A stretch of DNA of 64,000 bases from positions 496,001-560,000 of the forward strand of contig NZ_JAQZAJ010000003.1 of the NCBI RefSeq assembly GCF_028737195.1, in the 5' to 3' direction. A program made the position numbers and the translations under genes. Positions 8,749-33,387 of this stretch are shown in pieces. The notes beneath the pieces were generated by a model. It saw only the letters and a program-made list of their open reading frames with translations, made no database searches and was not told where the DNA came from. Position 1 is the stretch's first letter; every line of letters begins with the position of its first letter. The stretch comes from Pseudovibrio exalbescens (lineage in GTDB: Bacteria > Pseudomonadota > Alphaproteobacteria > Rhizobiales > Stappiaceae).

Positions 8749-8779
8749 GTGGGCCTGATATCAGCTTTGCTCAGTTCTT

Positions 8780-9880: not shown

Positions 9881-9882
9881 CC

Positions 9883-13237: not shown

Positions 13238-14446
13238 ATGCGCATATCAAAGTCGGTTGCAGATGGTGTCCGGCCTGAGAAGAAAGACACCTATTTATGG
13301 GACAGTCACCTAAGGGGCTTTGGCCTTAAAACGACGCCAACAGGCCACAAGACATACCTCATACAGTACAGGCTGGGTGGGCGGAACGGCAGAACGCGCC
13401 GTTTCACCATTGGCACCCACGGGAAGATAACCGCAGACCAGGCGCGCAAGGAAGCCAAGAGGCTGCTGGGGGAGGTTTCCGCAGGCCGTGATCCTATGAG
13501 TGCGCGCGATGAACAAAGGCGCTGCAAACCCCTCTACGAGGTTCTGGATGAGTTCCTTACGCAGCATGTGGCGATCAATTTGAAGCCTAGGTCACAAGAG
13601 CATTACAGCCGCAGCATCAGGCTTCATATCAAACCAACCCTTAGAAACGTTCCGATTACAGAAGTTGATCGCGCTCAAATAGCCCATGTGCACCATCAGT
13701 TGAACAAAACGCCCTATGAGGCCAATCGAACACTTGCTGTTCTGTCCAAGTTCTTCAACTGGTGCGAGGCGGTTGGTTATCGAAATGACGGAAGCAACCC
13801 GTGCAAGCACATCTCAAAATATAAGGAACATCGCAGAGAGCGTTTTCTTTCCGCTGCCGAACTGGCGCGCTTGGGCGAGGCGATTTCAAAAGCCGAGACG
13901 CAGGGGCTGGCGAATGAGAAGGGCTGGGTATGGCACCCAAGCCCGCACGTGATAGCTGCCGTTCGGCTGCTCATCATGACGGGCGCACGCCTTTCTGAGG
14001 TGCTGACTTTGAAATGGGAGTTCGTTGACTTCGAGAAGATGCAGGCCCGCTTGCCCGACTCCAAGACTGGAGCCAAAACCCTCTACCTTAATGCCCCTGC
14101 CATGTCGGTTCTGGCGGAGGTGCCAAGGCTCCACGGCAACCCCTATGTCATCTGTGGAGACGGGGGAACGGGCCGCCTGATCAACCTGCAAAAGCCTTGG
14201 CGGAAAATACGCGGTGAGGCAGGGCTTGAAGATGTCCGCATCCATGACCTGCGCCATACCTTCGCGTCTTTTGCCGTGGCTCAAGGGATGTCCTTGCCGA
14301 TGATTGGGAAGTTGCTGGGCCACTCTCAACCGGCAACAACCGCCCGGTACGCTCATCTTTCAAATGACCCGGCGCAACAAGCGAGTGAGGAAACATCAAG
14401 AGCCTTGACACTTCATTTCTATCCCGAAAAACAAAGAAACGAGTGA
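13238..14446 (+). CDS. Tyrosine recombinase integrase
   Basis: 402 residues of the P4-type integrase family. The N-terminal arm-binding domain (DUF4102-like, DSHLRGFGLKTTPTGHKTY, about residues 20-90) is followed by a core-binding SAM-like domain (about 100-190) and the catalytic domain. The active-site set is complete: R251 (TGARLSEVL), H336 and R339 (HDLRH), H362 (LLGHSQ) and nucleophile Y371 (ARYAHL). It inserts and removes the island at the tRNA-Thr 3' end, and sits just inside the left att copy, as is usual. The frame is intact, so it may still work. Confidence 0.93.
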   Translation: MRISKSVADGVRPEKKDTYLWDSHLRGFGLKTTPTGHKTYLIQYRLGGRNGRTRRFTIGTHGKITADQARKEAKRLLGEVSAGRDPMSARDEQRRCKPLYEVLDEFLTQHVAINLKPRSQEHYSRSIRLHIKPTLRNVPITEVDRAQIAHVHHQLNKTPYEANRTLAVLSKFFNWCEAVGYRNDGSNPCKHISKYKEHRRERFLSAAELARLGEAISKAETQGLANEKGWVWHPSPHVIAAVRLLIMTGARLSEVLTLKWEFVDFEKMQARLPDSKTGAKTLYLNAPAMSVLAEVPRLHGNPYVICGDGGTGRLINLQKPWRKIRGEAGLEDVRIHDLRHTFASFAVAQGMSLPMIGKLLGHSQPATTARYAHLSNDPAQQASEETSRALTLHFYPEKQRNE

Positions 14447-15209: not shown

Positions 15210-15303
15210 TGAAATTTTAAAACCCGGGACTCTCCAAGTACCATCAAGTACTCAGTTTCCCTGCAAGGCGTTTAGAACTGTAGACGAATACTTGGAGATC
15301 AAG

Positions 15304-15495
15304 ATGTACAATGGAAGCTCTAAGCTTTTGAATGTCGAGCAGGCGGCAAAATACCTTAGCCTATCGACATCCACACTGGCGAAAATGCGCTTGTCGGGTG
15401 AAAGCCCGAAGTTTGTAAAAATGGGCAGGCGGGTAGCCTACAGGCAAGAAGACTTGGATGCCTGGATCGAACAACGGTTGAAGCAAACAACCTGA
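15304..15495 (+). CDS. AlpA/excisionase-like helix-turn-helix protein
   Basis: 63 residues from the ATG at 15304, chosen because GGAG lies 6 bases before it; the frame could also open at TTG 15292. The pattern LNVEQAAKYLSLSTSTLAKM, then SPKFVKMGRRVAYRQEDLDAWI, is the MerR-like winged HTH of AlpA regulators and excisionases. Such proteins control integrase expression or direct excision. It is followed by a strong inverted repeat at 15505-15535. Confidence 0.85.
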   Translation: MYNGSSKLLNVEQAAKYLSLSTSTLAKMRLSGESPKFVKMGRRVAYRQEDLDAWIEQRLKQTT

Positions 15496-17910: not shown

Positions 17911-18681
17911 CTATTCATTGGGGGCTTTATTCTCGAAAACCTTCGACCTGTGCCATTCAAGAAAGAACCTATGCTGATCGGTTAGTAGCAGCGGTTTATT
18001 GAAACGAAGACTTTCTTTCGCGGCAGTATCTAGTTGCTTTGAAAATGTTGGATACCCGTCATTGCTGAACGTTACGAGACCACTATCAAATGCCGCATCC
18101 CAAAAAGCGGATAGAAGTAAGCCATTATAAATACTGAGCCGTTCGTCGTCGTGTTTGCAGTCACTCCATGGTTTAATGTGCGAAGCTCTAAGGAGTGACT
18201 GGTTTGCGATTCCGGTTAGGGGGCATCGGCCCTGCCAGTACTCGATCAAACGTTGGCGGAAAATATTTTGTCCAACACGTTGAACCACCAGCCGTTCCGC
18301 CTCGGTGTTTCTTGGCAAATTTTTTGTTTCATTGATGAACTCCTGAAGCGGTGCGTCTGGGAGGCTTGCGGCTAGCTCGTAAACTCTCGGCATCACGCCA
18401 TAAAGCTGTGCCAGCGAGGCAAACTGGAACCGTGCGAGGCCCGGTCCTGCTGCATCGGACGCTTCAATCCCGATCTCTGCAATAACTCCGGCGTGATCCA
18501 GGGCGAGGAACCACGCGCCGGAACTGTCCCGAGCCAGCCAAATTGAACCCTGCGCTGTTGTCGAGCTGTAGTTTCGCCATCCACCGGTCTCACCATGGTT
18601 CCGGCGATAGCCATTCCGGAATGCAAGCTGTTCGCACTCGTGGCAGGTCACGAAGGATTGGGGCGTTTCAATTACAACCAT
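17911..18681 (-). CDS. HNH endonuclease, last gene of the defence operon
   Basis: 256 residues from ATG at 18681, two bases after the previous stop; a TTG at 18687 would overlap it. The HNH nuclease domain is in the C-terminal half: a Cys in GRCPLTG, ASHIKPWSDCKHDDERLSIY and NGLLLSAFWDAAFDSGLVTF (about residues 150-200), the pattern of the HNH_2 (PF13391) restriction-nuclease family. A CHEC pair near residues 12-15 may bind metal. It is the only clear nuclease in the operon and is the probable effector that cuts unmodified or invading DNA. Confidence 0.85.
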   Translation of the reverse strand: MVVIETPQSFVTCHECEQLAFRNGYRRNHGETGGWRNYSSTTAQGSIWLARDSSGAWFLALDHAGVIAEIGIEASDAAGPGLARFQFASLAQLYGVMPRVYELAASLPDAPLQEFINETKNLPRNTEAERLVVQRVGQNIFRQRLIEYWQGRCPLTGIANQSLLRASHIKPWSDCKHDDERLSIYNGLLLSAFWDAAFDSGLVTFSNDGYPTFSKQLDTAAKESLRFNKPLLLTDQHRFFLEWHRSKVFENKAPNE

Positions 18682-18683
18682 GG

Positions 18684-19472
18684 TCAACCGTCCAATTGAT
18701 CCAGCAGTCTGGCCCTCATGTCCTCTAGCGAGGGCATCACGTCCTTCTCGCGAACCAGCATGCGCACCTCGTTTTCGAAGTGCTCGAGGAAGATGGAGAA
18801 GACGGCTCCCTCGTCGTCTTCAGCCGCTGATGCCATGAAGGCGTCTACCAACTCGTCAGCCAGTTCGGACAGATTAGCCTTAGGGTCGATGAGTGCGTCG
18901 CAGCCGTTGGCAATGAGATCCATCGCCTCGTCTCTGTCAGACAGGATGGACCAAACCATACCCGAGCCGTCGACTTCGTAACTGATAACGTCTCCGCGGT
19001 CAGGGCCAATCAGGTCGAGCGTGCGGCGTGACGCACGGGTATTCACCTCGTCGTGGACGAGCGACACAATCCCATCCATCCAGATGCTACCGAGGGATTC
19101 CTCCTCGTCGCAATCGATGTCCTCTTCGTATGCTCGCGCGCTCAGGAAAGTCTGGGCGTGTTTCGGCAGTTTCTCAACTTCGGAAAGGATCACCGCGCGC
19201 ACAACGTCGTCGAAAGCGTCTGAGAACGAGCCGAGGTTGACATCATCCCAGCCAATGTTGTCATCGAACGGCCCCTCCTGCAGCGACCAGCAGTATTCAT
19301 CCCAGAGGTGACGAGCCGCGACATCGCCAAAGATTCCATTGGCCGGTTGGGAGCGCAGATCGGCGATAACTGAACTTGCGATTAGTTTAATCCCGGCGCG
19401 GGCAAAGTCCTCCGCCGCAGATTGAAGCCTGGCCAAGCCGTCTCGGCTGACCTCAATAGTATCCTCGTCCAT
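18684..19472 (-). CDS. Very acidic hypothetical protein, 262 aa, in the defence operon
   Basis: 262 residues. I count about 60 Asp/Glu against about 21 Lys/Arg, spread along the chain, with clusters such as EEDIDCDEEE and AAEDDEG. I recognise no family or catalytic motif. It starts 3 bases after the methyltransferase stop and ends just before the HNH gene, so it is tightly coupled to both. High acidity could mean DNA mimicry, a modulator or inhibitor of the nuclease, or an adaptor, but none of this is shown by the sequence. It is the least explained part of the operon. Confidence 0.72.
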   Translation of the reverse strand: MDEDTIEVSRDGLARLQSAAEDFARAGIKLIASSVIADLRSQPANGIFGDVAARHLWDEYCWSLQEGPFDDNIGWDDVNLGSFSDAFDDVVRAVILSEVEKLPKHAQTFLSARAYEEDIDCDEEESLGSIWMDGIVSLVHDEVNTRASRRTLDLIGPDRGDVISYEVDGSGMVWSILSDRDEAMDLIANGCDALIDPKANLSELADELVDAFMASAAEDDEGAVFSIFLEHFENEVRMLVREKDVMPSLEDMRARLLDQLDG

Positions 19473-19475
19473 CGC

Positions 19476-22400
19476 CTACATCCCCATTTCGGTAAATTCG
19501 CCGTTCGCTTCCATCCGGTCCCAGGCGGCGAGGACGAGGCGGCGGGTGCGGTATTCGCCGTGCTGGCGGATTTCCTTTTCCTTGAGGACGCGGAAGGTTT
19601 CCGAGGGGTAGTCGGGGCCCTTCACGTCGGCGGGGTCGAGGATGTAGCGCAGCTCGTCGCGGGTCAGGCCGTAGGCGCGGGCGTAGAAGGCGTCGAGATC
19701 GGCGCGCAGGTGGGTGCGGCGGTTCTCGTCCCACGCGAAGGGCGGGCCGTCATGCCCCAGATCGCGGGCGAAGGGGGCGAGGCTGTGCGAGGTGTAGGTG
19801 AGTTCCAGCACCTTCGGGGTGATGAAGGCGAGGCGGGATTCGGTGTAGAATTCTGGTGGAAGAATGGGGAACTGAAATAAGAGGTATAGATTAAGATTTG
19901 CCCCGCCCAATTTCTGCCGCGCAGCGAAATCGACGACCAAAGATGCGCAGTTTGCTGCAAGGCTAGCTATCTTGCGAGGGTCCATCTCCTTCGGAAGGAT
20001 CCAGATTGGAAAGCTATTTCCAACGGCTACCATCGGAATTATACACGAAATGAAGGTTCTCTCATCCGTAGCTCTCGCAAGCCCACGATGCCCAAAAAGC
20101 CAATCGTGGTGCCAGTCGGTGGACACGAGTCTTGAAACAACCTCACTTTTTGGCACCCAATAGCGAGGCAAGGGGTCAAAACTATCGTTTATTTTTTCGT
20201 TTTGCGTTACATCATGAGATTTTGTGCCATCCGGCATGTATCCGGCCCAGCGATGGTCATAGAGATGAACCATCTTAGCTTCGTAGAGCGGCAAATAATC
20301 TTTTTCAGCGTAGTCGTTTTTTACCGCACCGTTTTCAGAACAGACCACTTCCTCTTGGATATGTGGATCGGGGTCCTTGCTGATGAAACTGTCTTTTTCG
20401 AGATCACAAGCAGATTTGAACCAATCAGAGTCTTCGGTCATATGCCAAATGCGCGTATAGACTCTAACGCTCCAAGGATTGCCGTCCTTCTTATTTCCCT
20501 CGTCGATCAAAACAGGCGCGTTGCGATAGATCTTTGCAGTCAGTTCGGCATCTAAGCGAGAGCGGAATACTGGAACCGTCTTGGTATTTGGGTTGATAGC
20601 CGCTATCTGCTCAGGACTTAAAGTGAAATTGCGCTCGGGTTCAGCTAGCTGTGCAGGTTCAGTCAAAAAGAACGCAAAATGCGCCTCAGGTTCATCCCGA
20701 CCAATGCTGAGTAAGCAAAACTTGTAGCTTCGATGTACGGCTTGGAAAATCGGCGCGGAGTTCTCGAAATCGATTAAGCTCGCAAGCCTCTTTGCCTCAA
20801 CCAAATGCGCAAAGAACGGTGCAGTGGTCGCATCAGTTGCCACGCCGGTCGGTACAATTACTCCAGCACGCTGGCGCGCTAGATTGGAGAAGAGTTCGGC
20901 GAACAAAGCATAAGTATTTACGTCACCTCGACCCGCAAGTGCAAAACGACCGCCGTCCTCTCCCGAAAGACGGGCGAATTCACTGCTCGCGTCGGCCTCA
21001 CGCTTTGCCGCAATGAAGGCATTGTGGAGAGTTCTTTCGGGGCTACCTTCTGGCGCTGCGGCCAATGATCTTATTAGCTTGTCGCGAGCCGTCTTGTTGG
21101 CAGCACTCGCAATGTCGGGGGAAAGGGTAGCAAAAAATTCTTGCTCCTGAAGCTTAACCCGTTCCCACGGCGGGTTTCCTAGAACCACGTCAAACCCGCC
21201 GCGCTGCATCACATCGGGGAACTCCAGCGGCCAGTGGAAAGCCCGCGCACGGCGCGCTGCCTTGGGCGCGTCCACCATCGCCTGCCGCATCTTGCCCTGA
21301 TTGAGGGCCATCCACAGCTCCTCGGTCGTCGGCACGGTGCGGGCCGACGCCCCCGCAGGAGCCCCGCCGACCTTGGGCAGCACGAAGGCTGCGACATAGA
21401 GGTCCGAGGCCGTCTTCGCGCGGACAAAGGTCCGCCCCTTACGCAGTTCCTTGAACCGCTTGGCCTTGGCGCCGATCTGCTCGACCGTATCCTCGGGCAG
21501 GTCGCGGAAGCCCGAGAAATCCAGCGCCAGCGGCTTCACCTCGGGCATGGACGCCTGACCGGTGCCGAAGTCGAACCCGCCTTGGCCCGCAGTCGCGTCG
21601 CGATTGGCCTTGAGGTAGTATTTCGCGGTTTCCTTGTCGTCGCCGGTCAGCGGCTTATAGGCAGCATCGGGAATGCCGTCCTCCAGCACCTGCAAGTCAA
21701 AAACCCCCAGCAGCGCGTCGCCGCAGCGGATCTGCGCGTCGAAAAAGCCGAGGGGAAGGCCCGGGTCCACCGTCTCGATCCAGAGCGCGACCTTGGTCAG
21801 CTCCACCGCCATCGGGTTGCGATCCACCCCGTGGATGCAGCAGCGCGCAACATCGCGCAGGGCATGGCGGAAATCGGCGAGCGAGGGCGTGCCGCCATGA
21901 TCTTGGGTGGCCCGGATGCGCGCAAGCCGCGTGGCGATGCGGCGGGCGGCGGCCAGCAGGAAGTGGCCCGAACCGCAGGCGGGGTCGATGACCGAGAGTT
22001 TCAGCAGCGCCTTGGCGGGATCGTCCGCCTCGGCCTCGGTCTTGTCGAGCACGGGGTCGAGCGCGGTGTCGAGCAGCGCCTGGACGAGGCTGTCGGGCGT
22101 GTAGTAGGAGCCGGTGGTCTTGCGCTGGTTGCCCTTCTGCTCGGCCGCCTCGGAGGCGAAGACCAGCGTCTTGCCATCATCGCCGAGCTGGGGCTGCAGT
22201 TCGAGGAGGGACTCGTAGACCGAGCCCAGTTCCTCGGTCTCCATCGCACGCCAGTTAACGGGGACCATGCCGGTTTTGTCCGAGAGCCAGGAGAGGCGGT
22301 AGAGCGCCTCCATGAAGGCCTTGTTGCGCAGGCGGGCGGTTTCAAAATGAGGCAAACGGTCGTCGGCAAAGAGGCCACCAAGCGCCGGGAGGGCGAGTGC

Positions 22401-23447
22401 TGGCTGGCCATTGGCGAGCGCCTTGAAGACGATCTTGACGCCTTCGTAGCGGTCGTGGTGCTTGTCCCAAGTCGCGGCGCGGTAGCATTGCTTTCGGAGC
22501 GCTGCGAGGCTGTAGCCTTCGGCGTAGAGCGCGCGGGCCTCCGCCTTCGATTTCGCCGGGTGTAGGAGGTTCCGATCCTCGGCGACCATCAGGAAGATCA
22601 GCCGGTAGACGAGGCGGAGGAGTTCGTTGAACCAGGTGGTGAGGTTCACCTCGCCCGATTTCAGTTTGGCCGCGAGCTCTGGGTTGGCTTCGAGGAAGCC
22701 CGAGCCCAGAACCTTGAGCGCGATCTGGACCTGGTCTGCCAGGCGGTCACGCGCGGCCTCGCCCTCGCGGGAGCCTGCCTCGCGCCAGCGCTCCAACGGG
22801 CAGTCGGTGGCCGGGGTGTCGGCGGCGCCGAAACGGGTCCGGTGTATCAGGAGCCAGAGCGCGGCGAAGGACGCGATGTCGTCGTTGGTGAACATCTGCG
22901 CCAAATCGGCCTCGATATAGGCCGGGCGGGTCAGAGAGGCATTGTCGCGCATGAGGCGCAACTGCATTCCGTTGGTCACGATGCCCCAGAGAGCCTCGTC
23001 CCGATCATTCAGGTAGTCCTGAAGGGCGAAGGCTGGAGAGCGCGACCTGTCCGTCGAGAGCGTCGGGCTGCGACGGTCAAGCAGTTCGGACGGGGGGACG
23101 ACCACAACGGGTACACGGTCGGACGCGATCAGAGCGATCGGTGCCGCTGCTAGGGCGAGGTCGGAATACCCGAAGGTTTCCTTGAAGAAGTCGGCAATGA
23201 AACGCGTGGTTGCTGCGGCCGAGGGGTGCTCAATCTTTGCAAAGGCGTCGAAATGCGATTGGCCCACGCGGAAGGCGGTGGCGATTTCCTCGCGGATCTG
23301 GAGACCTTTGCGAACCCCGTATTCCTCGGGGGATTGCTCGGTTGCCTGGCGCTGATCGATCTTGGCGATCATCGCAGGCGCGATCAGGTTGCCTTCGAGG
23401 CCTAGCGACGGCCACGCGGTCATATCGGTGATTGGTTTGCGGGCCAT
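19476..23447 (-). CDS. Eco57I-type N6-adenine DNA methyltransferase
   Basis: 1323 residues. The SAM-binding motif I is DPACGSGHFL at about residues 488-497 and catalytic motif IV is GNPPW at about 757, the order of gamma-class adenine methyltransferases of the Eco57I/PglX type. The first 480 residues are a helical region of the kind found in PglX and DrmMI; I see no PD-D/ExK or HNH motif in it. A target-recognition region follows to about residue 1250. In size and architecture it resembles DrmMI of class 1 DISARM, and it probably marks host DNA as self. It starts 3 bases after the SNF2 helicase stop. Confidence 0.9.
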   Translation of the reverse strand: MARKPITDMTAWPSLGLEGNLIAPAMIAKIDQRQATEQSPEEYGVRKGLQIREEIATAFRVGQSHFDAFAKIEHPSAAATTRFIADFFKETFGYSDLALAAAPIALIASDRVPVVVVPPSELLDRRSPTLSTDRSRSPAFALQDYLNDRDEALWGIVTNGMQLRLMRDNASLTRPAYIEADLAQMFTNDDIASFAALWLLIHRTRFGAADTPATDCPLERWREAGSREGEAARDRLADQVQIALKVLGSGFLEANPELAAKLKSGEVNLTTWFNELLRLVYRLIFLMVAEDRNLLHPAKSKAEARALYAEGYSLAALRKQCYRAATWDKHHDRYEGVKIVFKALANGQPALALPALGGLFADDRLPHFETARLRNKAFMEALYRLSWLSDKTGMVPVNWRAMETEELGSVYESLLELQPQLGDDGKTLVFASEAAEQKGNQRKTTGSYYTPDSLVQALLDTALDPVLDKTEAEADDPAKALLKLSVIDPACGSGHFLLAAARRIATRLARIRATQDHGGTPSLADFRHALRDVARCCIHGVDRNPMAVELTKVALWIETVDPGLPLGFFDAQIRCGDALLGVFDLQVLEDGIPDAAYKPLTGDDKETAKYYLKANRDATAGQGGFDFGTGQASMPEVKPLALDFSGFRDLPEDTVEQIGAKAKRFKELRKGRTFVRAKTASDLYVAAFVLPKVGGAPAGASARTVPTTEELWMALNQGKMRQAMVDAPKAARRARAFHWPLEFPDVMQRGGFDVVLGNPPWERVKLQEQEFFATLSPDIASAANKTARDKLIRSLAAAPEGSPERTLHNAFIAAKREADASSEFARLSGEDGGRFALAGRGDVNTYALFAELFSNLARQRAGVIVPTGVATDATTAPFFAHLVEAKRLASLIDFENSAPIFQAVHRSYKFCLLSIGRDEPEAHFAFFLTEPAQLAEPERNFTLSPEQIAAINPNTKTVPVFRSRLDAELTAKIYRNAPVLIDEGNKKDGNPWSVRVYTRIWHMTEDSDWFKSACDLEKDSFISKDPDPHIQEEVVCSENGAVKNDYAEKDYLPLYEAKMVHLYDHRWAGYMPDGTKSHDVTQNEKINDSFDPLPRYWVPKSEVVSRLVSTDWHHDWLFGHRGLARATDERTFISCIIPMVAVGNSFPIWILPKEMDPRKIASLAANCASLVVDFAARQKLGGANLNLYLLFQFPILPPEFYTESRLAFITPKVLELTYTSHSLAPFARDLGHDGPPFAWDENRRTHLRADLDAFYARAYGLTRDELRYILDPADVKGPDYPSETFRVLKEKEIRQHGEYRTRRLVLAAWDRMEANGEFTEMGM

Positions 23448-23449
23448 GA

Positions 23450-26221
23450 TTACACCTCCCCCGGAACAAGAACGAAGAGGCCGATGACGTCTGGGGGAAT
23501 GATCGGGTCGACACTGACACGCGACGCAGAACCGGCTGCGGCACGAAGACGGGCGTGGTCTTCAACCAGCTCCGCGGCACGCTGTTGCACGAAATCGGCA
23601 ATCGGGCCGCCCAGCAGGTCAGGAAGGGCCGCCTTCGCCGTATTGATCATCCGGTCGCGGGCGACAGGCGCAAGATCAGCAGTCGCGGGAGAGGCAAGCA
23701 GCGCGTGCGCCTCGCTGCCAGAGGCGATTACCGAATTGCTGTCAAGGGCAACGAGGGCGGCTTCCTCTGCCAGCAGAAGGCGTTCACGCCGCGCATGGAC
23801 GGTAAGCTTGTAACGAATGCGCAAGAGAGCGACACGCGTCATCTGAGTGACGGCGGCACTCGGCCAGGCCCCGACACGGCCGATGCCCAGATCCGGCAGT
23901 GCTTCGGTGTCGAGAGAGGCTTCAAGCAGGCTTTCTGCCAGGGACGATGTCAGCGGATGGGTTCTGGTCAGAAGTGAAGCGCCTGATGGCACCGGTTCCT
24001 GCGTGGCCAGTTTCACAGAGCCTTTCAGCCCACGCTGCTCCAGCTTTTCCTTGAGGCTATCCTGAAGGGCATGCACGTGGGCGAACTGCAGTACTTTCTT
24101 CTTCTCGAGAGGCACCCCGAACCGAGACATCGCGCGCTCGAGAAATTCGAGCGTTTCCGCTGGCGATCCAAGCAGGGACTTCACCTTGTCCCATTCAGGA
24201 GCGACCTCACTTGGCTTCATGGCGTTTTGTGCAAACCGGGCGCGTGACCGCTTTTCATTCTCGCTTGCGTCGCGCCAGCGGGTCTCCATCACCTGGATGC
24301 CGTCGCCGATTTGCAGGTCCAGCGTTAGCTGCTTGTGATTGCCACCGTCACGGCGGAGCATCATCGCGGCCATCAATGCATCGGTTACTGGTCCACGCTC
24401 ATCAGGGAGTGGGACTGTAACACCGGTTGCTTCCCGGATGTCCTTAGCTTTACGAAGGATGACATCTAGTACAGCACCGTCGATCGCGCTGTCGGGCGAG
24501 AACATCATAATTGAACGAACGAGTTCTGCAGGCTGGCCGAAACGATCCACGCGTCCTTCGCGTTGTTGATGCCGTGTGGGGTTCCAGCAAAGGTCATAAT
24601 GGACCACAGTATCGAATACTTGCTGCAGGTTGATACCCTCGGACAAACAGTCCGTTGCGACGAGAATGCGCTGATCCCCGTCACCACCATCCTCGGGCGC
24701 CATTTCCGCGACGCGATCACGACGTTCGTCCGGCGTCAATTCACCTGTCACGGCCTGCACATTCAGTTTGGGGAAGGCCTTCCGAAGCCCTTTTTTTACA
24801 TGTTCCGCAGTGGCGAGGTAGCGGCAGAAGACGACGGGGTTGGCGCCGTTTTTGATCAAGGGCTTGAGAGCCTTGATGAGGGCGTTCAGCTTGGGATCTT
24901 CGGCGGTCAGAAGTTCGCAGGCCTTGTCGAGCAGCCCTTGGAGAGCGGGATCATTTGAGAACACAGTGTTTGGCTCAATGTCCACGGCGTCTTCATCATC
25001 GCCATCTTCGTCGTAAATCTGCGGCTCGATGCGGTCGTCTTCATTGGAAGCCCGGTTTCGCAACGCGCTCATTGCGGCTGCGGGTGATGATCCGACACAG
25101 CGCATCAGCGCTAGAGTGCCCCAGAAGGCGAGACGGCGATCCTTCTGCGCATCTCCGGCCCGAGATACGACCGAGAAACAGTAATCAAGTACGGCCTCTT
25201 GGAAGGATCGATGCTCGGCGTTCAGGCGATACGAATATTCGGTGGTCTCGTGCTTGGGGAACGAGCGGTTCTCATCCCAGTCGCCCTCGATCAGGTCGAC
25301 GCGCCGGCGCTGAACAAAGTGCCTGACAAGGCGCTCGCGGTATTTCTGGTTGTCGAAGTTGACGGTCCCGAATTCCGTGTCGATCAGCGACAGAAGCCGA
25401 GCGAACGCATCTTCATCTCCGGAGTGCGGCGTGGCTGTCAGCAGGATCAACCGACGCTCAGGATCGCGCGCAAGGCCTTGGAGCAGGTCGAAACGCTGCT
25501 GCTTTCCCTTGTGCGTCCCGACGCAGGCGTGTGCCTCATCAACGATAACGAAATCCGGGCAGGCCCTGGCGAACCCATCCCGACGCTTCTCGGCTTTGAT
25601 GTAGTCAAGGCTGACCACCGTGAACGGATAGGCATCGAAAAGGGTCTGCGCCAATGGGAGGTTGCGCTCCAGACGCGCCGCAGTCCCGGAGGTGACGGCA
25701 ACGGCATCGATCCCGAAGCGATCCTTCAGTTCTGTGATCCACTGGTCCACGAGGTGCGGAGGACAGAGAACCGAAAACGCATCGACCTCTCCGCGATCCA
25801 TGAGTTCACGGAGGATCAGACCAGCTTCAATGGTTTTGCCGATGCCAACGTCGTCGGCAATCAACAGCCGCGGGACCTGAAGCCGAAGGGCCATGAGAAG
25901 CGGGACCAGCTGGTACGCCCGAGGCTCAAACGCAAGCTGTGCAGCGGATCGGAAAGGGCCCGCCCCTCGACGGAGGGTCAATCGCAACGCGTCGGCGAGA
26001 AGCGCCGCCTTAGATTGCACAGTTGGACGAGCATCTTCCGGTAGATCGAAGCGAGCAGCCTCAACCGTTGTCAGCTCAAGTTCCGGAGCGAGAACAATGA
26101 TGTCGTTTTCATTGCCCGAAAGAGGGCGCAGGGCAAGCAAACCCTCGCCGGGTGCTGGCAAAGTAACCCATTCACGGCCGCGTGCTCTGACGAGATCTCC
26201 AGGGGTGAAATCAATGGTCAT
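23450..26221 (-). CDS. SNF2-family helicase, DrmD-like
   Basis: 923 residues from the ATG at 26221, one base after the previous stop; the frame extends back to 26287 but that would overlap the helicase gene. An N-terminal segment (FTPGDLVRARGREWVTLP) is followed by Walker A ADDVGIGKT (about residues 122-130), DEAH (about 228-231) and motif VI RHQQREGRVDRFGQ (about 550). This is the SNF2/RapA-type double-stranded DNA translocase layout. It resembles DrmD, the SNF2 helicase of class 1 DISARM, which also pairs with an Eco57I-type methylase. The C-terminal 300 residues are helical and of unknown role. Confidence 0.88.
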   Translation of the reverse strand: MTIDFTPGDLVRARGREWVTLPAPGEGLLALRPLSGNENDIIVLAPELELTTVEAARFDLPEDARPTVQSKAALLADALRLTLRRGAGPFRSAAQLAFEPRAYQLVPLLMALRLQVPRLLIADDVGIGKTIEAGLILRELMDRGEVDAFSVLCPPHLVDQWITELKDRFGIDAVAVTSGTAARLERNLPLAQTLFDAYPFTVVSLDYIKAEKRRDGFARACPDFVIVDEAHACVGTHKGKQQRFDLLQGLARDPERRLILLTATPHSGDEDAFARLLSLIDTEFGTVNFDNQKYRERLVRHFVQRRRVDLIEGDWDENRSFPKHETTEYSYRLNAEHRSFQEAVLDYCFSVVSRAGDAQKDRRLAFWGTLALMRCVGSSPAAAMSALRNRASNEDDRIEPQIYDEDGDDEDAVDIEPNTVFSNDPALQGLLDKACELLTAEDPKLNALIKALKPLIKNGANPVVFCRYLATAEHVKKGLRKAFPKLNVQAVTGELTPDERRDRVAEMAPEDGGDGDQRILVATDCLSEGINLQQVFDTVVHYDLCWNPTRHQQREGRVDRFGQPAELVRSIMMFSPDSAIDGAVLDVILRKAKDIREATGVTVPLPDERGPVTDALMAAMMLRRDGGNHKQLTLDLQIGDGIQVMETRWRDASENEKRSRARFAQNAMKPSEVAPEWDKVKSLLGSPAETLEFLERAMSRFGVPLEKKKVLQFAHVHALQDSLKEKLEQRGLKGSVKLATQEPVPSGASLLTRTHPLTSSLAESLLEASLDTEALPDLGIGRVGAWPSAAVTQMTRVALLRIRYKLTVHARRERLLLAEEAALVALDSNSVIASGSEAHALLASPATADLAPVARDRMINTAKAALPDLLGGPIADFVQQRAAELVEDHARLRAAAGSASRVSVDPIIPPDVIGLFVLVPGEV

Positions 26222-26222
26222 A

Positions 26223-29200
26223 TCAACCTTCAAAATTCTTGATGAAGCCATCTGGCAGCCCCTCGGACGGAGCCGAAGGCAGACCAAACACGACCCAGCC
26301 TTTGTTCAGCGCGTCCGCCTCAGCTTCTGCCGTCAGGTTTGCGGTCGTCGCGGCAACCGCGTATGCGCGCCAAACAAACTCAAAATCACGTCCACCAAAG
26401 CTTGCGGGCATCGTATCGACGGGGGGAATGCCTGCCGCGCTGAACTCCTCAAGCCATGGTGATGGCATGGTTCTGGCGGCCGGTTTTTCAGCAAGGGAAA
26501 TCTGGCCGCGTGCAAGATTGATCAGGAATTGCGCCACTTCCGGGCTCGAGCTGTCGATCAGCTCATGATCCGGTTGGTTGAAGTAGGAGAGCAGGCAACG
26601 GTAGCAGCCACGATGGCAATTTCCGTCTTTCTTCTTCAGCAGATCCGCATCACCAGCAGCAATCGCAGCATCCACATTCTCGAAGTGCATCAGACCCAGT
26701 GCGGTCTTCGCCACCTCGTTGATAGCCTTTCCGTCATCAATCAGGCGCGTGAGTACGCCGGCGCCGCCTTCCGTTGCCTCGTAGGCAAGGATTGCGCGAC
26801 GGTTGTCCCTCGCGGGCAGCGGTTCACCGAGGATTTCGCCTTCTTCCAACTGGAAAACCACTTCGATTCCGCGCAGCAAAGCATGCTGAACCGTCGCGAT
26901 TGTCACGGGCTCATACTGCTCCGGCTTTTCGAAGCGGAACAAAAGGGCATTCTTGTTGTCACGGACGATCGGAACAATGCGAACCGGCTTGACCACGTCG
27001 GGTGGAATGTCCGTATCACTGTCTTCGCCATCAGATTTTGCCCAGTAACCCGATCTTGGGTCAATATAGAAGCCATACTCTGTTTCAGCCTTGCGACGCT
27101 TCAAGCCCTTGTTCAGGCGACTAATTTCTGCGCGGTTGGCATATTGAAGGTCCAGCAGCGAAGTTTCACCGCAGACGAAATTGGCATTGGTCACTTGGGC
27201 TCGACCATCTTTTTTCGGCCAAGCGAAGACGGTCTGGATGTCAAAACCCTGCCGAACGCGCTCTTCATCGTTCGCGGTGATACGCTCAGTCGGCGCAGCC
27301 TCGACGTTATCAATGCGCAGGGTCTGTTTGATGGCGACCTCGCCCGCCATGTGGTTGTTGCACCCATGGCAGCGCTCGACCTCGCCCTCATGCGAGGCAC
27401 CACAGTTGGAGCAGATGTAGATATCTTTGGTCACCAATTCCGATCCATCGCCCTGACGCACCTCGGGCGGCAGTTTGGCTTTCATGACCCGATAGGCGCG
27501 CCCCTCGTGATAGATCAGACTGCGCGGGCCGAATTCGGAAATGGCCAGGAAGCGGGCTCTGGACAGGAAGGACCCCGTCTTGCCTTCGCCAGGGACAAAC
27601 GCGTAGAGCGGCAGGCGCGGGAAATTGTAACCAGGCAAGAAGCCCTCAGTCGCCAGATATCGATACGAATAGAAATCGGAGCCATTCGAGGCTTTGCCTT
27701 GTTCGAGGATGGCGATCTGATCTTGGGCTTGCATCTGCGCGGCTTTAATCTTGCGCCGGTCGGCTCCCGAGAGCCCAGTGATCTCCGAACGCTTGTTGGC
27801 TTCTGCCAATTGCGTTCGGGCAGATCTATAAAGCTCCCGCCAACGGTCGAACGCGCGGTCAAACTCCTTTGGGGCATTCATGGCCGTGTAAAGAACGAAC
27901 TCGTCTGGATCGTCCATCCAGATCGGGGTTTGCCCTCCGTCGGACGCGAGAATCTGGTTCAAGACACGCGCCATCGGCCCCCGTACCTGCGAAACCAGAG
28001 CTGGTTTCGAGATGACCGCCAGAACGTCGTCCTTCAGTGGGAATTTGTCCGCATGAAGGTCCAGAATCTCTGGGATGTCGGGAGAAAGCGCCAGTTTCGC
28101 TTCCGCAAGCCACACCGCGTGCAGGTGCGATCGGATCAGCTCTTCATTCGTGATGTCGAGTGCTGGCGGCCGCACGACGCCGGCCACCATATCGTTGCGC
28201 CGTTCGAAGAAGTACTGGTCATGCGGAGACCCCGAGGCGCAGTAGGTCACCACAACCGCGGCCTGACCCGATCGGCCGGCACGACCAGCGCGCTGCGCGT
28301 AATTCGCCGGCGTAGGCGGTACGTTGCGCAAGTAGACGGCGTTCAAGGCGGAAATATCAACGCCGAGTTCCATGGTCGGAGAGCAAAACAGCGCGGGCAG
28401 GAACCGGTCTGACTCGCCGGTCGCCCGAATTTCCGTTCGGTACTCAGACGTTGCAAGATGGTCCATGTCGTCCTGCTCGAAACGGAACCGCCATTCCCGC
28501 CATTCCCGCTGCTTCTGCGAAACCTGAGCCGTGTGCTCGCGTCCCTCCAGCCCCCAGTAGGAACTACGCCCGTCGCCAAGGTCACTGGCAATCGCGGTGT
28601 AAAGGTCGTGGAAATATCGGTTACCGCGGTGGGTTTCATCATCGAGGGCCGGTCCAGGAACAAGCCGAACCGCAGATGGTGACAGGCGCCAGCCCGTCAC
28701 ATCGCTATCGAGTTCGACAGGCACCAGCAGCCCTTCGTCGCTCAGGAAGGCAAGCATCCCTTCCATGAACTCGTAGTATTCATCCCTGTTCAGCTTTATG
28801 CTGAGAACGGACTTCCGGTTCACGAGCCGTGCGATCCGTGAATTGGGACCTGCCCGAAGAAGCGTTTGTTCTTCACGCAGCGTGACGACGTTCTTGCTGC
28901 CCGCGCGCAGAACAAGCGAGGACCGCGCTCGCGGATTTTCCTTTTGGTCAATGGCCCAAGGTGCCTGAAGCAGCATTCGGGATTTCTGGGCCACGCCGTC
29001 GAGGACAGTCAGGTCCAAGGCTTCGGTCTGAACAGCCAAACCCTCGAGCATCGCGGACAAAATCGCCTTTAGAATTGCCTGCCGCTGTTCGAGGCTGAGG
29101 TCTCCCAGCGCTGGATGGATGTCCATGAAGCGCTCGCGATCCTGAGAGATTTCCTCGAGGCCGAGGAAATTCACGTCGATCAGGTTCAGGACAGACAAGC

Positions 29201-31397
29201 TGGGGTTGGTGAAGCGCCAACCGCGACGCAGGTCCGTCCAGACGCGATGTGCGAGAACCTTTGCGAGCGACCGCTGGGCGTCTTCGCGAATGATGGCACC
29301 AGCATTCGAATCCAGGATCCAGTGCTGGCGCGCCTCTTTGTTGGCGGCAGTAAAGCCGAGTGCCTTCACCACCTGCAGGCCGAACTCGTCTTCTGCAAGC
29401 CCACCTGAGCCAGCAGAAATGACCGCGCGAAGGATGGCTCCGCGCAACAGGCTCACGAACAGGAAATCATTGAAATGGCCAGACTGCAGGGCTGCATCCT
29501 GGCGGTTGTCCGTGAACCCTAGAAGCTTCCGCTTCGTCTCAGGTACGCCGCTATCAGGTTTGTTCATCCACTCCAGGGCGCTGGCTACGAGCAAAGTTGT
29601 TGCCGAGCTTCGCCCTTCGCCGGAGAGCCCCGCCAACTTGCTGCGTTCACGCATCCCCTGCGCCGGTTCGTCATGACAGCACAGGCAGAACGCGAACTTC
29701 CCCGGGATGAACCAGAAATCGTTTCCGCCCGCTCCGTGGCGACCATCTGCACCCACGACGTAGGACACCGGCATACGCTTCTTGCGATAGCCTCTCAGTC
29801 GTTCAATGCCGTTTTTCTCTTCTCGCCAGCTTTCTGGGTAACCCTCAAGCTCGCCTGTGAACTGAAAGTCAGTATCGTTGGGCCTTACCGGACAGAGATA
29901 CCCTGCAACCTCGTCTTCTTCAGTGTCGAGCGGCGTGTCGTCTATGCTTCTGGGTAGAAAGCGCAAACTCCCATCATCGTCTACCTTGGTCACGACATGG
30001 TATTCTTGGCCACAGTTTCGGCAGAACCGCGTGGGGTAGAGGCGGTTTTGTGGGGTTTCGGGGTCCACCAGCTGCCCTTCAAGAAGTATCCGACGCGGAC
30101 TGGCTGTGAGCGTCGTAAAGACTTCACCGGCACCGGAGATGAAACGGTGGAGTTTGAAGGCGAGAAAGGCCCCATCCTTCGTACCGCCGCGCTCATGCTC
30201 CGGCAGGCTTACCCGGGTCAGGAATTTTTCGAGATAGTCTCGGCAGGTTTCGGTATCGACCGCACTGGCCAGAGAAAGCTTTTCTACGGCTTCTTCGAAA
30301 GGGATCGGCTTCTTCCTGCGAAGCTCAAGCCCATCGTCCAATCCGAGTTCGAGTTCGGCCCAAACCGAGAGCGGATGACGCCTCAGGGTCTCGTCATCAA
30401 GTGTGTCCGGGAGGGGCTGCGTCAGGACCATCTTCAAAGCGCCGAGGACGTGCTCGGTCTTCAGAGCGTCGTCGGTCGCGCGCTGCAAGGACTCATCTAT
30501 GACTGCGTCTGGACCAATATCGGTGCCAAACAGACGCGACGCCACCCTCGCGACAGCAAGTGCGCGGTTCTCGTCCGATCCCTCGGATGCCATCGTCGCC
30601 GAGGTCCCGATGCAGATTGGTTCCTTGTCAGGCGAGCACCTGTCTCGGAGGCGCCGAACGAGGACAGCTACATCGGCACCCTGACGTCCGCGATAGGTGT
30701 GGAGTTCGTCGAGAATGATGAACTCGAGACCAGACGCGTTCGAGACGACTTTCGAGTCCAGGTCGTCCTGACGCGTCAGAAGCAATTCTGCCATCATGTA
30801 GTTCGTCAGGAGAACATCGGGCGGATTGGCAGCTATGCGCTCACGTTCTTCACGGCTTTCCTGGCCGGTGTACCGTTTGACCACCGGCTTGAGCTCATCG
30901 GGCAAACCGGAACCGGCGATGAACTTGTCGATCTCCTTCATCTGGCTATTTGCCAGTGCGTTCATCGGATAGACGATGATTGCCATTGTGCGTCGCGGCT
31001 TTCCAGCGCGCCGCGCGCGAATGATTGCATCGACAACCGGCACGAAGAAGCACAGGGATTTCCCCGAACCCGTGCCGGTAGTGACGACATAACTCTTTCC
31101 TTGCTTCGCCTTCGCGATGGCCTCAGCTTGGTGCCGGTGAAAGCGAAGAGGTGTGGCACCAAACCGGAAAACTTTGCCCGTGCCGTCGTCGACATCACCC
31201 GTGGCTACGAGTTCATCGATCGTCGGCCCCGCCATGAAGCGTGGGTTCAGCGACAAGAGAGCATCTGGCCAGAATTTTCCTGCGTCGTACTGGGCATCGA
31301 TCTCTGATTTCAGGTCAGTCGCCCGAATAGCGCTGAATGAACGCGAAAAGTGCTCGTAGGCATGGATTAGTTGATGGTCAAAATCAAATGCTTTCAT
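26223..31397 (-). CDS. Giant DExH helicase with C-terminal DUF1998-type region
   Basis: About 1724 residues; ATG at 31397 with AGG upstream, or GTG one codon earlier. Helicase domain 1 has Walker A GTGSGKS (about residue 110) and DExH in IILDELHTYRGRQGADVAVL (about 231). Domain 2 ends with FCSPTMELGVDISALNAVYL and QRAGRAGRSGQ. A Cys-rich segment (CSNCGASHEGEVERCHGCNN) and, near residue 1590, CHRGCYRCLLSY form the C-terminal zinc/DUF1998-type region. The DELHTYRG context is that of YprA/MrfA and the very large DruE helicases, not of DISARM DrmA as I know it. It is the first gene of the operon. Confidence 0.9.
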   Translation of the reverse strand: MKAFDFDHQLIHAYEHFSRSFSAIRATDLKSEIDAQYDAGKFWPDALLSLNPRFMAGPTIDELVATGDVDDGTGKVFRFGATPLRFHRHQAEAIAKAKQGKSYVVTTGTGSGKSLCFFVPVVDAIIRARRAGKPRRTMAIIVYPMNALANSQMKEIDKFIAGSGLPDELKPVVKRYTGQESREERERIAANPPDVLLTNYMMAELLLTRQDDLDSKVVSNASGLEFIILDELHTYRGRQGADVAVLVRRLRDRCSPDKEPICIGTSATMASEGSDENRALAVARVASRLFGTDIGPDAVIDESLQRATDDALKTEHVLGALKMVLTQPLPDTLDDETLRRHPLSVWAELELGLDDGLELRRKKPIPFEEAVEKLSLASAVDTETCRDYLEKFLTRVSLPEHERGGTKDGAFLAFKLHRFISGAGEVFTTLTASPRRILLEGQLVDPETPQNRLYPTRFCRNCGQEYHVVTKVDDDGSLRFLPRSIDDTPLDTEEDEVAGYLCPVRPNDTDFQFTGELEGYPESWREEKNGIERLRGYRKKRMPVSYVVGADGRHGAGGNDFWFIPGKFAFCLCCHDEPAQGMRERSKLAGLSGEGRSSATTLLVASALEWMNKPDSGVPETKRKLLGFTDNRQDAALQSGHFNDFLFVSLLRGAILRAVISAGSGGLAEDEFGLQVVKALGFTAANKEARQHWILDSNAGAIIREDAQRSLAKVLAHRVWTDLRRGWRFTNPSLSVLNLIDVNFLGLEEISQDRERFMDIHPALGDLSLEQRQAILKAILSAMLEGLAVQTEALDLTVLDGVAQKSRMLLQAPWAIDQKENPRARSSLVLRAGSKNVVTLREEQTLLRAGPNSRIARLVNRKSVLSIKLNRDEYYEFMEGMLAFLSDEGLLVPVELDSDVTGWRLSPSAVRLVPGPALDDETHRGNRYFHDLYTAIASDLGDGRSSYWGLEGREHTAQVSQKQREWREWRFRFEQDDMDHLATSEYRTEIRATGESDRFLPALFCSPTMELGVDISALNAVYLRNVPPTPANYAQRAGRAGRSGQAAVVVTYCASGSPHDQYFFERRNDMVAGVVRPPALDITNEELIRSHLHAVWLAEAKLALSPDIPEILDLHADKFPLKDDVLAVISKPALVSQVRGPMARVLNQILASDGGQTPIWMDDPDEFVLYTAMNAPKEFDRAFDRWRELYRSARTQLAEANKRSEITGLSGADRRKIKAAQMQAQDQIAILEQGKASNGSDFYSYRYLATEGFLPGYNFPRLPLYAFVPGEGKTGSFLSRARFLAISEFGPRSLIYHEGRAYRVMKAKLPPEVRQGDGSELVTKDIYICSNCGASHEGEVERCHGCNNHMAGEVAIKQTLRIDNVEAAPTERITANDEERVRQGFDIQTVFAWPKKDGRAQVTNANFVCGETSLLDLQYANRAEISRLNKGLKRRKAETEYGFYIDPRSGYWAKSDGEDSDTDIPPDVVKPVRIVPIVRDNKNALLFRFEKPEQYEPVTIATVQHALLRGIEVVFQLEEGEILGEPLPARDNRRAILAYEATEGGAGVLTRLIDDGKAINEVAKTALGLMHFENVDAAIAAGDADLLKKKDGNCHRGCYRCLLSYFNQPDHELIDSSSPEVAQFLINLARGQISLAEKPAARTMPSPWLEEFSAAGIPPVDTMPASFGGRDFEFVWRAYAVAATTANLTAEAEADALNKGWVVFGLPSAPSEGLPDGFIKNFEG

Positions 31398-31680
31398 CAC
31401 TTACCTGCAAAATAAAAAAACAAAATTCTTAACGATATTGCTTTCCATTTTAGAAATGCGTTCTTTTAGCGCCGATATCTCGCTAAAGCTTTAATTGTCT
31501 GATTTCGCAAATGTGTTTTGAACATCGCATCCAATTCGTTCTAGAGTATTTGCAATTTCTGGTTAACATTTTGAGTTGTTGCGATTTGAATGATTCACTA
31601 GTTCGTCATGATAGAAAGCGTTGATGGAAGTGGTCAAACGCGTTTATGTATTGACCCAGTGAAAATCTGCTCATGCTACA
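31398..31680. promoter_or_regulatory. AT-rich region upstream of the defence operon
   Basis: About 280 AT-rich bases between the defence operon start and the IS3 scrap. The operon promoter should lie here on the minus strand, but I could not single out a -35/-10 pair. Confidence 0.45.
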
Positions 31681-32363
31681 GTGAGGAAAATGGTAGCGAT
31701 GAGTGAAGCGTTGGAAGAAGGTATCAAACGTTGGACAGCCAAGCGCAAATCAGCGCTTGCCAAAGAGATAATGCGGGGCAAGACCACCATGGCCGAGGCC
31801 AGCCGGACTTATGATCTGACACCAAGCGAGATCGAGGGTTGGGTGGACGATACCCAGAAGGGCATGGAAAATGCCTTGCGTGCCAATCCCCTTGATGTTC
31901 GTTAGCACTTTGAGTAAAGGCTGTGCGATCTTCCGGAAGCCTATGGGGTGTAATGCTGGAGTTGGGGCGCGAAAAAACGTTGCAGGCCTTGCTGGACGCG
32001 GAGGACGACAAATGATCCGCAGTGTCCAGTAAGGCTTTCTGGAACAAGGTGTTGTGATCCTGCTGACGAAGTTGTGCATCAGGTTCAACGTTCCGCGCCG
32101 CATTGTTTATTATAAACCAACCAAGGCCGCATCGAAGGTCAACTCGGCTTTCAGTGAGCCCATGAAGGCTTTCATCGCACAGGAGCCTCCCTTCGGCTAT
32201 AGCACGGTGGCCAATTTCTGGGCTTTAACAAAAACACCGTGCAGCGGATATTCCAGCTGAAAGGGTGGCAGGTTCGCAAGCGTTGCATTGGAGTTAGGAC
32301 CATAGTTGAAGCACTGCCTTCCGTTGCGCACGCTCCCAACCAGCGCTGGTCACCTGATTTATG
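31681..32363 (+). pseudogene. IS3-family transposase remnant (orfA and orfB pieces)
   Basis: The first frame (31681-31905) reads KRWTAKRKSALAKEIMRGKT and PSEIEGWVDD, the OrfA of an IS3-family element of the DUF1153 type, and stops early. After a broken stretch, OrfB pieces appear: VPRRIVYYKPTKAASKVN (from about 32090) and, in another frame, NKNTVQRIFQLKGWQVRKR (from about 32228), ending at a stop near 32370 after RWSPDLCC. Frameshifts and missing parts make it inactive. No terminal repeats were found. Confidence 0.8.
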
Positions 32364-32364
32364 T

Positions 32365-32870
32365 TGTTAGTGGGCCTATCACGACCAGCGTACACAATTT
32401 GGCATCTTCAGCGCGAAGAGCACTGTAGATGCCATCTGCCCATATGTAGATCTATTCATCCTTACAAAGATCGCTCTGACGCCATGTATTATACTCCTGC
32501 GCCCACTTTTTCTTCAATCTGGAGACGGTGCTGGCAGAATGGCCACTGGCTTCAGGTCCGACCAGAACTCTCAAGACCCATCCATTTCGCCGCTGGAGAT
32601 GCCTTTCAGATAAAGTCAGGGTAAGGCCTGGCTTCCAGGCTTCTTGCTTTGCGAACATAGGGCGGCACGAGCGCAGATTGGAAGGTAACCGGTGCGCCGG
32701 AGCGATTACGGACTTTCGTAACCTGGACTGCAACAGGTCTTATCCCGGTCTGGATCTGACCTTCAGGATGATATCCGCTACGCACAACACGCGAGCGGCC
32801 TTCCACATCCATATCTTTTCGGAAACGGGCAAGCACACACTGGAGTTACTGTTCTATAGCCTGCTGTAGC
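32365..32870 (-). pseudogene. IS256-family (mutator) transposase remnant
   Basis: Read on the minus strand, pieces match the IS256 transposase order: GYHPEGQIQTGIRPVAVQVT, PPYVRKARSLEA, then in another frame GPEASGHSASTVSRLKKKWA with LCKDE, an in-frame TAG where Trp is expected, and IYIWADGIYSALRAEDAKLC. The frameshift, the stop and the missing C-terminus show it is dead. It abuts the IS3 scrap at about 32364, and one insertion or deletion may have cut the other. Confidence 0.82.
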
Positions 32871-33208
32871 AAGTCTCGCGCTCCATCGCGCAGCAACTGA
32901 GTCAGGGATCGTCAAAAACGCTGTTTTAACGCGCAAGCTCAACGATATTATCGTTCTCCACGATGGCGTATCTCTTAGTGGTTGAAATGTGGATTTGGGC
33001 ATCAATCAGTCAACCCGATACGCCGCCGACTGAACTTCACAATGCACCAGATGCAGGTATAGCTCTGCAATGTGCGCTCGGTGCCATTCTTCTCAGTTGC
33101 ATGACGATATGTTTGCTCTAAAGGCAAGAGCATTTGGTGAGCAGACATCACAGTATCCTACAGGTTCATTCTAAATGTTTAGGGCTGTTCTGCTGAGACG
33201 TATTTTGC
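32871..33208. other. Decayed DNA near the right end of the island
   Basis: About 340 bases between the IS256 scrap and the arm-type repeats. No gene is supported. Confidence 0.4.
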
Positions 33209-33212: not shown

Positions 33213-33234
33213 CTTACTGGGTGATTACTGGAGC
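33213..33234 (+). repeat. Integrase arm-type repeats, right end
   Basis: Two units, CTTACTGGGTG and ATTACTGGAGC, match the left set at 13176-13208. The shared exact block is 23 bases (13172-13194 and 33209-33231), in direct orientation. The pair marks both ends of the island. Confidence 0.7.
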
Positions 33235-33258
33235 TTTTTTGAGGGGTGCTGGATACAC

Positions 33259-33283
33259 AAAAAGCCGCAAATTTGCGGCTTTT
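33259..33283 (-). terminator. tRNA-Thr terminator
   Basis: AAAAGCCGCAAATTTGCGGC followed by TTTT forms a near-perfect palindrome 29 bases beyond the CCA end of tRNA-Thr. A-runs and T-runs on both sides let it end transcription in either direction. Confidence 0.8.
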
Positions 33284-33311
33284 AAGTCATTGACTTTAAT
33301 AAAGGAAAGCG

Positions 33312-33387
33312 TGGTGCCGGCAGCAGGGATCGAACCCGCGACCCCCTGATTACAAGTCAGGTGCTCTACCATCTGAGCTATACCGGC
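33312..33387 (-). tRNA. tRNA-Thr (anticodon TGT)
   Basis: A complete cloverleaf with encoded CCA on the minus strand. The acceptor GCCGGTA pairs with TGCCGGC, the D stem is GCTC/GAGC, the anticodon stem CCTGA/TCAGG holds loop CTTGTAA (anticodon TGT, reads ACA), and the T arm GCGGG-TTCGATC-CCTGC is intact. Its 3' 47 bases are duplicated at 13010-13056, so the gene is the integration target of the island and was restored by the element's own copy of the 3' end. Confidence 0.95.

Follow-up and report, generated by a model that had tools for sequence, protein, structure and literature searches.

ARMADA has been defined by the association of a YprA helicase with a BrxHII-like helicase and a PglX-like methylase (PMC12458937, available text). 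For Type I, the same text describes a YprA gene that generally comes first (PMC12458937, Bell et al. 2025 preprint) and a helicase ending in a predicted active Vsr-type nuclease, and for Type II it reports that the deletion of any gene abolished protection (PMC12458937). ARMADA is mentioned in passing in the available text of PMC13192584 and PMC12904381, the latter a 2026 review which counts it, alongside BREX, DISARM and Druantia, among the systems whose mechanism of restriction is unknown. Here we analyse a five-gene operon in a stretch of 64,000 nucleotides of Pseudovibrio exalbescens (contig NZ_JAQZAJ010000003.1, positions 496,001 to 560,000), called the window in the following. From its sequence the operon is probably, and we say so with some reserve, a mobile, ARMADA Type I-like system against phages in which cutting would have moved from the helicase-fused Vsr domain to a separate HNH nuclease. 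This reading starts from gene content, residue conservation, decay of the Vsr domain, co-inheritance of the HNH gene and variation of a methylase region, all of which are observed.

The operon occupies 17911-31397 on the minus strand with intergenic gaps of 1, 2, 3 and 2 bases, and its compact arrangement, the open reading frames with their lengths and the gaps of 1-3 bases are all found where the original prediction, made from the DNA letters, had placed them. Its parts are:

26223-31397, minus strand: YprA-family (DUF1998/MZB) DEAD-box helicase, 1724 aa from ATG, ARMADA Type I-like
26226-26579, minus strand: decayed Vsr-type nuclease domain at the C-terminal end of the helicase, without the catalytic E, D and DGxxH
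23450-26221, minus strand: SNF2/RapA-like (BrxHII/DrmD/ArmA-like) helicase, 923 aa from ATG, Pfam SNF2-rel_dom and Helicase_C
19476-23447, minus strand: PglX/DrmMI-like N6-adenine methyltransferase, 1323 aa, Pfam Eco57I 7e-18 (Eco57I/N6_Mtase)
19848-21200, minus strand: variable methylase region (about residues 751-1200), putative target-recognition region, from the drop in identity between close operons
18684-19472, minus strand: acidic protein, 262 aa, pI 4.06, 22.9% D+E, no family match
17911-18681, minus strand: predicted HNH endonuclease, 256 aa from ATG, Pfam HNH_2 37.8 bits

An alternative GTG start at 31400 would give a YprA-family helicase of 1725 aa, and a TTG start would lengthen the SNF2 protein to 945 aa. 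The former carries the Pfam domains DEAD (89-272), Helicase_C (984-1045) and MZB (1505-1603), the MrfA/DUF1998 zinc domain. The methylase contains DPACGSGHF and NPPW, which we take to be methyltransferase motifs, and scores 249 bits with the DrmMI model and 52 bits with the PglX model.

By gene content and order the core trio fits ARMADA Type I, so that the core, as we infer, is not a new system: a YprA-family helicase is followed by a BrxHII-like SNF2 helicase and then a PglX-like methylase, an ArmD-type UvrD helicase is absent, with no UvrD-type domain in the five operon proteins (Pfam), and the operon is carried by an integrative element located at a tRNA gene, a setting that the available text also gives for ARMADA islands (PMC12458937). 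It differs in that the C-terminal Vsr nuclease, predicted to be active in the Type I helicases described there, is decayed in the window helicase, and in the additional HNH and acidic genes; an active Vsr domain belongs to the description of Type I and lies outside the definition of the clade. In the main text of PMC12458937, as available, 'HNH' occurs once, within a reference title, and 'acidic' nowhere.

The fate of the Vsr domain was followed in 91 loci besides the window, comprising 80 loci of a genome scan, whose helicases are from 95% down to 36% identical, six plasmid regions and five other genomes, with downstream extensions added; the 80 are the best of at least 543 matches and are thereby biased towards close relatives. 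The tree comprises 89 helicases, those of 1300 aa or less being excluded, of which 17 have no known HNH state (two of these also no Vsr state), leaving 72 rows with both. Decayed and intact tails, 26 of each, are homologous with an hhalign probability of 98.7%, and E52, D82, D95, G96, H99 and D108, invariant in the intact tails, are missing from the tail of the window helicase. The Vsr domain is decayed beside an HNH gene in 52 of the 72 loci, decayed without HNH in 2, intact with HNH in 5 and intact without HNH in 13 (Fisher p 1e-8, uncorrected for phylogeny); HNH is thus present in 57. Rows with an intact Vsr domain and no HNH gene fall outside a clade of 66 rows (SH-aLRT 100), within which HNH is present wherever its state is known, except in L031 and L078. 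A betaproteobacterial group of 9 rows in this clade is mostly Vsr-intact, with damaged motifs in the HNH-bearing L073 and L082, and in the remaining 57 rows the domain is decayed in 56, the exception being the fragmentary L043. A 23-row tree with DruE as its outgroup has the intact, HNH-negative rows at the base. The 89-row tree calls for a single gain of HNH and a minimum of three Vsr losses, all on HNH-positive branches, or two if L073 is not counted; the branch-length p for losses on such branches is 0.002, or 0.005 without four long tips and 0.017 without L073. After the zinc motif, 126-166 residues are retained in 58 decayed tails and 155-209 in 29 intact ones, and as none of the 58 is simply gone, a remaining structural role of the decayed tail is suggested. 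Strict mutual exclusion of Vsr and HNH, suggested by a first survey of 10-kb flanks, was dropped for the HNH genes beside an intact Vsr domain in L069, L072, L074, L077 and L081, and a one-way statement is kept in its place.

With respect to scoring, L071 and L050 were counted as HNH-positive from copies cut by contig ends and L057 from its continuing contig. L101 was scored Vsr-intact by hand as its 'PDFI' was missed by the motif pattern, and L073 Vsr-decayed for its altered DGxxH motif; with L073 intact, the four counts above would read 51, 2, 6 and 13. Absence of HNH was set by hand for 15 rows, namely L031 and L032 (plasmid records), L078 (contig), G233 and G131 (at least 21 kb downstream) and ten from genome searches, which covered 35 of the 36 loci first scored HNH-negative (not L067); among the absent rows, L079, L083, L104 and L105 have HNH-like matches far away or on other contigs. 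Eight loci of the helicase occur in viral contigs, six of them examined by similarity only, and none was counted; for P0002 no relative was seen in viral contigs, and for P0005 none in phages at E 1e-30. Two single sequences are mentioned separately: in a contig of a metagenome-assembled genome (L047, 1-3750) the helicase frame runs into HNH-like sequence, by internal deletion or assembly chimera, and the HNH match of L081 (G405:C13:169484-170203), a locus with intact Vsr, contains one TAG stop.

The HNH protein itself consists of an N-terminal domain (about 1-106), linker helices and a VcaM4I/TagI-like HNH domain (about 125-250), with a pLDDT of 95.2 for the AlphaFold2 model. The HNH half matches VcaM4I (PDB 6yex; phmmer 4.3e-17 over 125-250, Foldseek 5.8e-08) and more weakly TagI (6ghs; Foldseek 0.017), and H168, N186, D195 and D199, invariant in 31 of 31 aligned HNH copies, align with H224, N241, D250 and D254 of VcaM4I. 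In the latter, according to the available text, H224, D250 and D254 are the tested residues, plus N241, and a linker helix keeps the HNH domain inactive (PMC7897488), which by analogy suggests a similar control of the window protein. The N-terminal domain gave no significant fold or reader-domain match in Foldseek searches of PDB and BFVD and in PDB sequence searches (EVE, SRA, NEco, SBD, wH).

Distances between HNH copies follow those between helicases (Mantel r 0.893 over 53 loci), as do those of the SNF2 protein (0.977) and the methylase (0.796), a comparison that has no neutral neighbour as control. In 40 of 55 measured loci the HNH gene lies within 2.5 kb of the methylase, in 9 there is a 4-base overlap between the methylase stop and the first possible HNH start, and in all of the 56 HNH-positive loci checked the HNH gene is on the strand of the helicase. 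In a sample of 385 genomes of the class, an HNH match at E 1e-30 is present in 13; in four of these the match covers the full profile, and three of the four have the helicase as well, the fourth (G066) having its HNH beside an SNF2 remnant. The latter copy, at about 7854-8954 of L156, adjoins a remnant of 69 aa that is 84% identical, with no helicase or methylase match within the 20 kb examined. On plasmids, at least 80% of the HNH protein is covered in 12 of 55 matching records; in 10 of the 12 the helicase is 7-10 kb off on the same strand, on a Paracoccus versutus plasmid HNH is accompanied by an SMC-type ATPase and the tail of a methylase, and a Rhizobium SU303 plasmid bears a solitary copy.

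That solitary copy is one of several observations that weigh against a hand-over of cutting from Vsr to HNH. In 6 of the 55 loci, 6-11 kb and intervening genes separate HNH from the methylase, and five loci keep both nucleases. A decayed Vsr domain without HNH is found in L031, where an IS21 element stands beside the methylase and whose plasmid is absent from the 55 HNH-bearing plasmid records, and in L078, where an SMC-type ATPase and then a gene resembling aconitase by eye follow. Independent Vsr losses appear to number two or three only, an independent-pair sign test on the tree has no power (3 pairs, p 1), and as the loss in L073 is arguable, our confidence in the hand-over is slightly lowered. 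The structurally known relatives of the HNH protein are modification-dependent enzymes, and a separate Type IV role would agree with this.

Two alternative roles of the HNH protein meet this evidence. It might be an auxiliary or backup nuclease, a second layer behind an ARMADA core that blocks phage without a nuclease and for which Vsr was never essential. L078, with its decayed Vsr and no HNH, and the loci with a distant HNH gene would agree with this, as would the HNH and other nucleases that serve as backups next to BREX and BREX-related cores, likely in compensation according to the available text of PMC12839542; the confinement of all counted Vsr losses to HNH-positive branches, the tight co-inheritance of HNH and helicase and the 4-base overlap with the methylase gene speak against it, and we judge a backup role unlikely, if conceivable. 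Alternatively, HNH could act as an independent Type IV, modification-dependent enzyme that hits modified phage DNA, with ARMADA attacking unmodified DNA. Besides the proximity of its HNH domain to VcaM4I and TagI, a weak NCBIfam match to a phosphorothioate-dependent enzyme (19.8 bits, cut-off 180) points that way. The absence of a significant reader-domain match in the searches of the N-terminal domain, the near confinement of the full-length form to ARMADA loci or remnants in the two collections tested and the agreement of HNH with the helicase phylogeny count against a Type IV enzyme, which makes it improbable in our view.

The methylase was compared between close operons. The helicases of L034 and L039 are 95% identical to that of the window. 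Their methylases keep an identity with that of the window of about 85% or more over most of the first 750 residues, and of 92-93% in residues 1201-1275; in between, in residues 751-1200, identity per 75 residues is 31-71% for L034 and 33-89% for L039. Compared with each other, the two loci are 37-84% identical in this methylase region, 87-99% in HNH blocks and 88-100% in helicase blocks. In 109 close pairs, too, the identity of the methylases is lower, with the drop starting near residue 600. The pattern looks like the exchange of a target-recognition region, and because this stretch differs between near-identical operons, it suggests that the methylase sets the site specificity of the whole machine. 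A site specificity of the HNH protein matched to the methylase is not supported, as L034 and L039 differ in the methylase region and have almost the same HNH protein.

The slot between methylase and HNH holds different genes in different loci. The acidic protein has no match in PADLOC, Pfam or NCBIfam; that it might be a DNA mimic is speculative, its AlphaFold2 model having a pLDDT of 38.7. Its relatives were sought in plasmids, viral contigs, 397 genomes of the order and the ARMADA loci; among the order genomes only its own has the gene, and it stands at the same place in 2 of the 91 other loci, L028 and L036. In these two (27209-31234 and 17930-22980, respectively) the C-terminal part of the methylase match is divided among two or more open reading frames. 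At least 25 of the 80 genome loci carry an SMC-type ATPase in the slot, a protein of 650-700 aa after the methylase (9900-11897 in L017, and 24 others) with weak LmuB (Lamassu) matches in 2 of 3 tested; SMC, Rad50 and AAA have no mention in the available main text of PMC12458937. A GmrSD-like HNH protein takes the slot in L064, a protein with a weak, below-cut-off match to the UDG superfamily in L034, and one that is membrane-bound by eye in L039, so that the slot genes of the window, L034 and L039 all differ in near-identical operons.

It is here that the five genes can be weighed as a system apart from every named one, with the acidic protein as an essential part. A separate system had been proposed in the original prediction, and the recurrence of the acidic gene in L028 and L036 and its lack of a family match are in favour of this view. 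Core trio and gene order fit ARMADA Type I, however, L034 and L039 with their 95% identical helicases have other genes in the acidic slot, and in 15 of 55 loci the HNH gene starts less than 300 bases from the methylase end, which leaves no room for an acidic gene. The acidic protein is therefore rejected as a core part and looks like an exchangeable accessory, and we hold the separate system to be very improbable. What holds of that prediction is the recurrence, with core plus HNH in dozens of loci and, among the 91 other loci, the acidic gene at its place in L028 and L036. The HNH and acidic genes stand outside the available description of Type I; three of the five genes match that one named system.

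For the hand-over of cutting to HNH we would propose, from the sequences, a scheme of host protection with a complex and an order of events leading to cleavage. The methylase would mark the DNA of the host, with its variable region determining the sites, and double as the recognition part of the complex. Unmarked incoming DNA would engage the SNF2 and YprA helicases, which may move along or open it. The N-terminal domain and linker helix of the HNH protein probably keep it inactive until it would be delivered or released onto the engaged DNA and then cleave, and the acidic protein would be an optional passenger, a regulator or counter-measure outside the core. In a more detailed and only tentative scenario, an ancestral ARMADA I with fused Vsr would have gained a trans-acting HNH with a new docking or inhibitory N-terminal domain, the catalytically dead Vsr would have been kept as a dock for HNH, and the swappable methylase region would set the target for marking and cutting.

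The operon is carried on an integrated element of about 20.3 kb, which the original prediction had overlooked, with the following features:

12928-13056, no strand assigned: left copy of the 129-nt att-type direct repeat (91% identity, spacing 20302), corresponding to part of the 3' end of tRNA-Thr
33230-33358, no strand assigned: right att-type direct repeat, overlapping the 3' end of tRNA-Thr(TGT)
33312-33387, minus strand: tRNA-Thr(TGT)
13238-14446, plus strand: tyrosine integrase, Pfam Arm-DNA-bind_3 and Phage_integrase
15292-15495, plus strand: AlpA-like small HTH protein, HTH_17 4.7e-12, a possible excisionase

In the same-genus genome G820, window positions 1-3838 and 33196 onward are about 2.5 kb apart, and the 18.5 kb compared contain no match to the integrase, helicase or HNH of the element. 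A third att-like copy, about 80% identical, lies at about 5958-6068, and an RpiR/metallo-hydrolase/ABC-transporter cluster lies between it and the left repeat (window 3839-13056); the G820 stretch compared has neither, and copy and cluster look as if two elements had been inserted in tandem at tRNA-Thr. Between operon and right repeat, 31660-33000 resembles IS3-type transposase remnants by eye.

With loci that have both nucleases, only Vsr or only HNH, the lineage is a natural experiment that makes it directly testable which of the proteins does the cutting and which one picks the site. It also illustrates that a scan for the three-gene core alone would miss a component. In the available literature on ARMADA and YprA relatives or on the gene set, neither an HNH component nor a decay of Vsr was seen for ARMADA I. 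The SNF2 protein matches the PADLOC model PDLC02853 'DpdE' with 646 bits over residues 23-942, nearly its full length, with no Dpd system present (DrmD 259 bits), which can be taken as a warning that automatic annotation could mislabel it.

Compared with the known systems, the operon is, as had been predicted, of a defence type related to DISARM and Druantia and identical to neither. It shares a DrmD-like SNF2 helicase and a DrmMI-like methylase with class 1 DISARM, but has a single fused helicase instead of separate DrmA and DrmB genes and no PLD nuclease domain (Pfam), and the SNF2 protein scores 290 bits against a DrmD cut-off of 610; two PLD-helicase models match this protein over its helicase part only. 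Membership of class 1 DISARM was rejected, as DrmA and DrmB are missing as separate genes and no DrmC PLD nuclease is seen with Pfam. The proposals that the helicase replaces DrmA/DrmB and the HNH protein the PLD nuclease did not hold, since the DUF1998/MZB part lies in the same protein, with a tail of the Vsr kind, and HNH instead accompanies the decay of this helicase-fused domain. With Druantia the operon has a giant YprA-family helicase in common, with partial DruE matches up to 258 bits; it differs in its methylase and SNF2 genes and in that no DruH or other Druantia gene was recognised in it, and membership was rejected with no non-DruE Druantia model among the matches listed (best 25 of 34-45 families, three proteins). 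Dpd was rejected equally, the operon having no 7-deazaguanine modification genes and only DpdE/DpdF/DpdJ model matches to the two helicases.

Of ARMADA Type II (E. coli ATCC 8739 / NCTC 12900), homologues of ArmA, ArmB and ArmC are present. With the E. coli ATCC 8739 locus as reference and source of these three proteins for BLAST, the SNF2 protein matches ArmA (3.7e-38) and the methylase ArmB (4.9e-16); the likeness of the window helicase to ArmC is only local (36% over 221 aa, 37% over 117 aa), both ArmC and DruE being matched over motor parts only and joining the tree by very long branches. Type II differs in its strict order with SNF2 first and in ArmD (RelE-UvrD), and is ruled out by this gene order and the lack of ArmD in the window operon. 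VcaM4I and TagI, as modification-dependent HNH enzymes (PMC7897488), share with the fifth gene product the HNH domain with its catalytic H/D/D and a preceding N-terminal domain and linker helix; the N-terminal domain of the window protein gave no EVE/SRA match in the searches above, and its gene is tied to ARMADA loci. In Hma and Type-1 BREX-related systems, finally, the ATPase (HmaC/DUF499) has no counterpart in the window operon and a YprA helicase is not described in the available texts, and Hma membership was rejected; these systems nevertheless share a helicase and methylase core, and nearby nucleases stand in where a helicase-fused nuclease is absent (PMC8565338, PMC12839542). This idea of a stand-in nuclease is thus already in print for BREX-related systems (PMC12839542), and a hand-over from Vsr to HNH in an ARMADA Type I lineage would be the less surprising for it.

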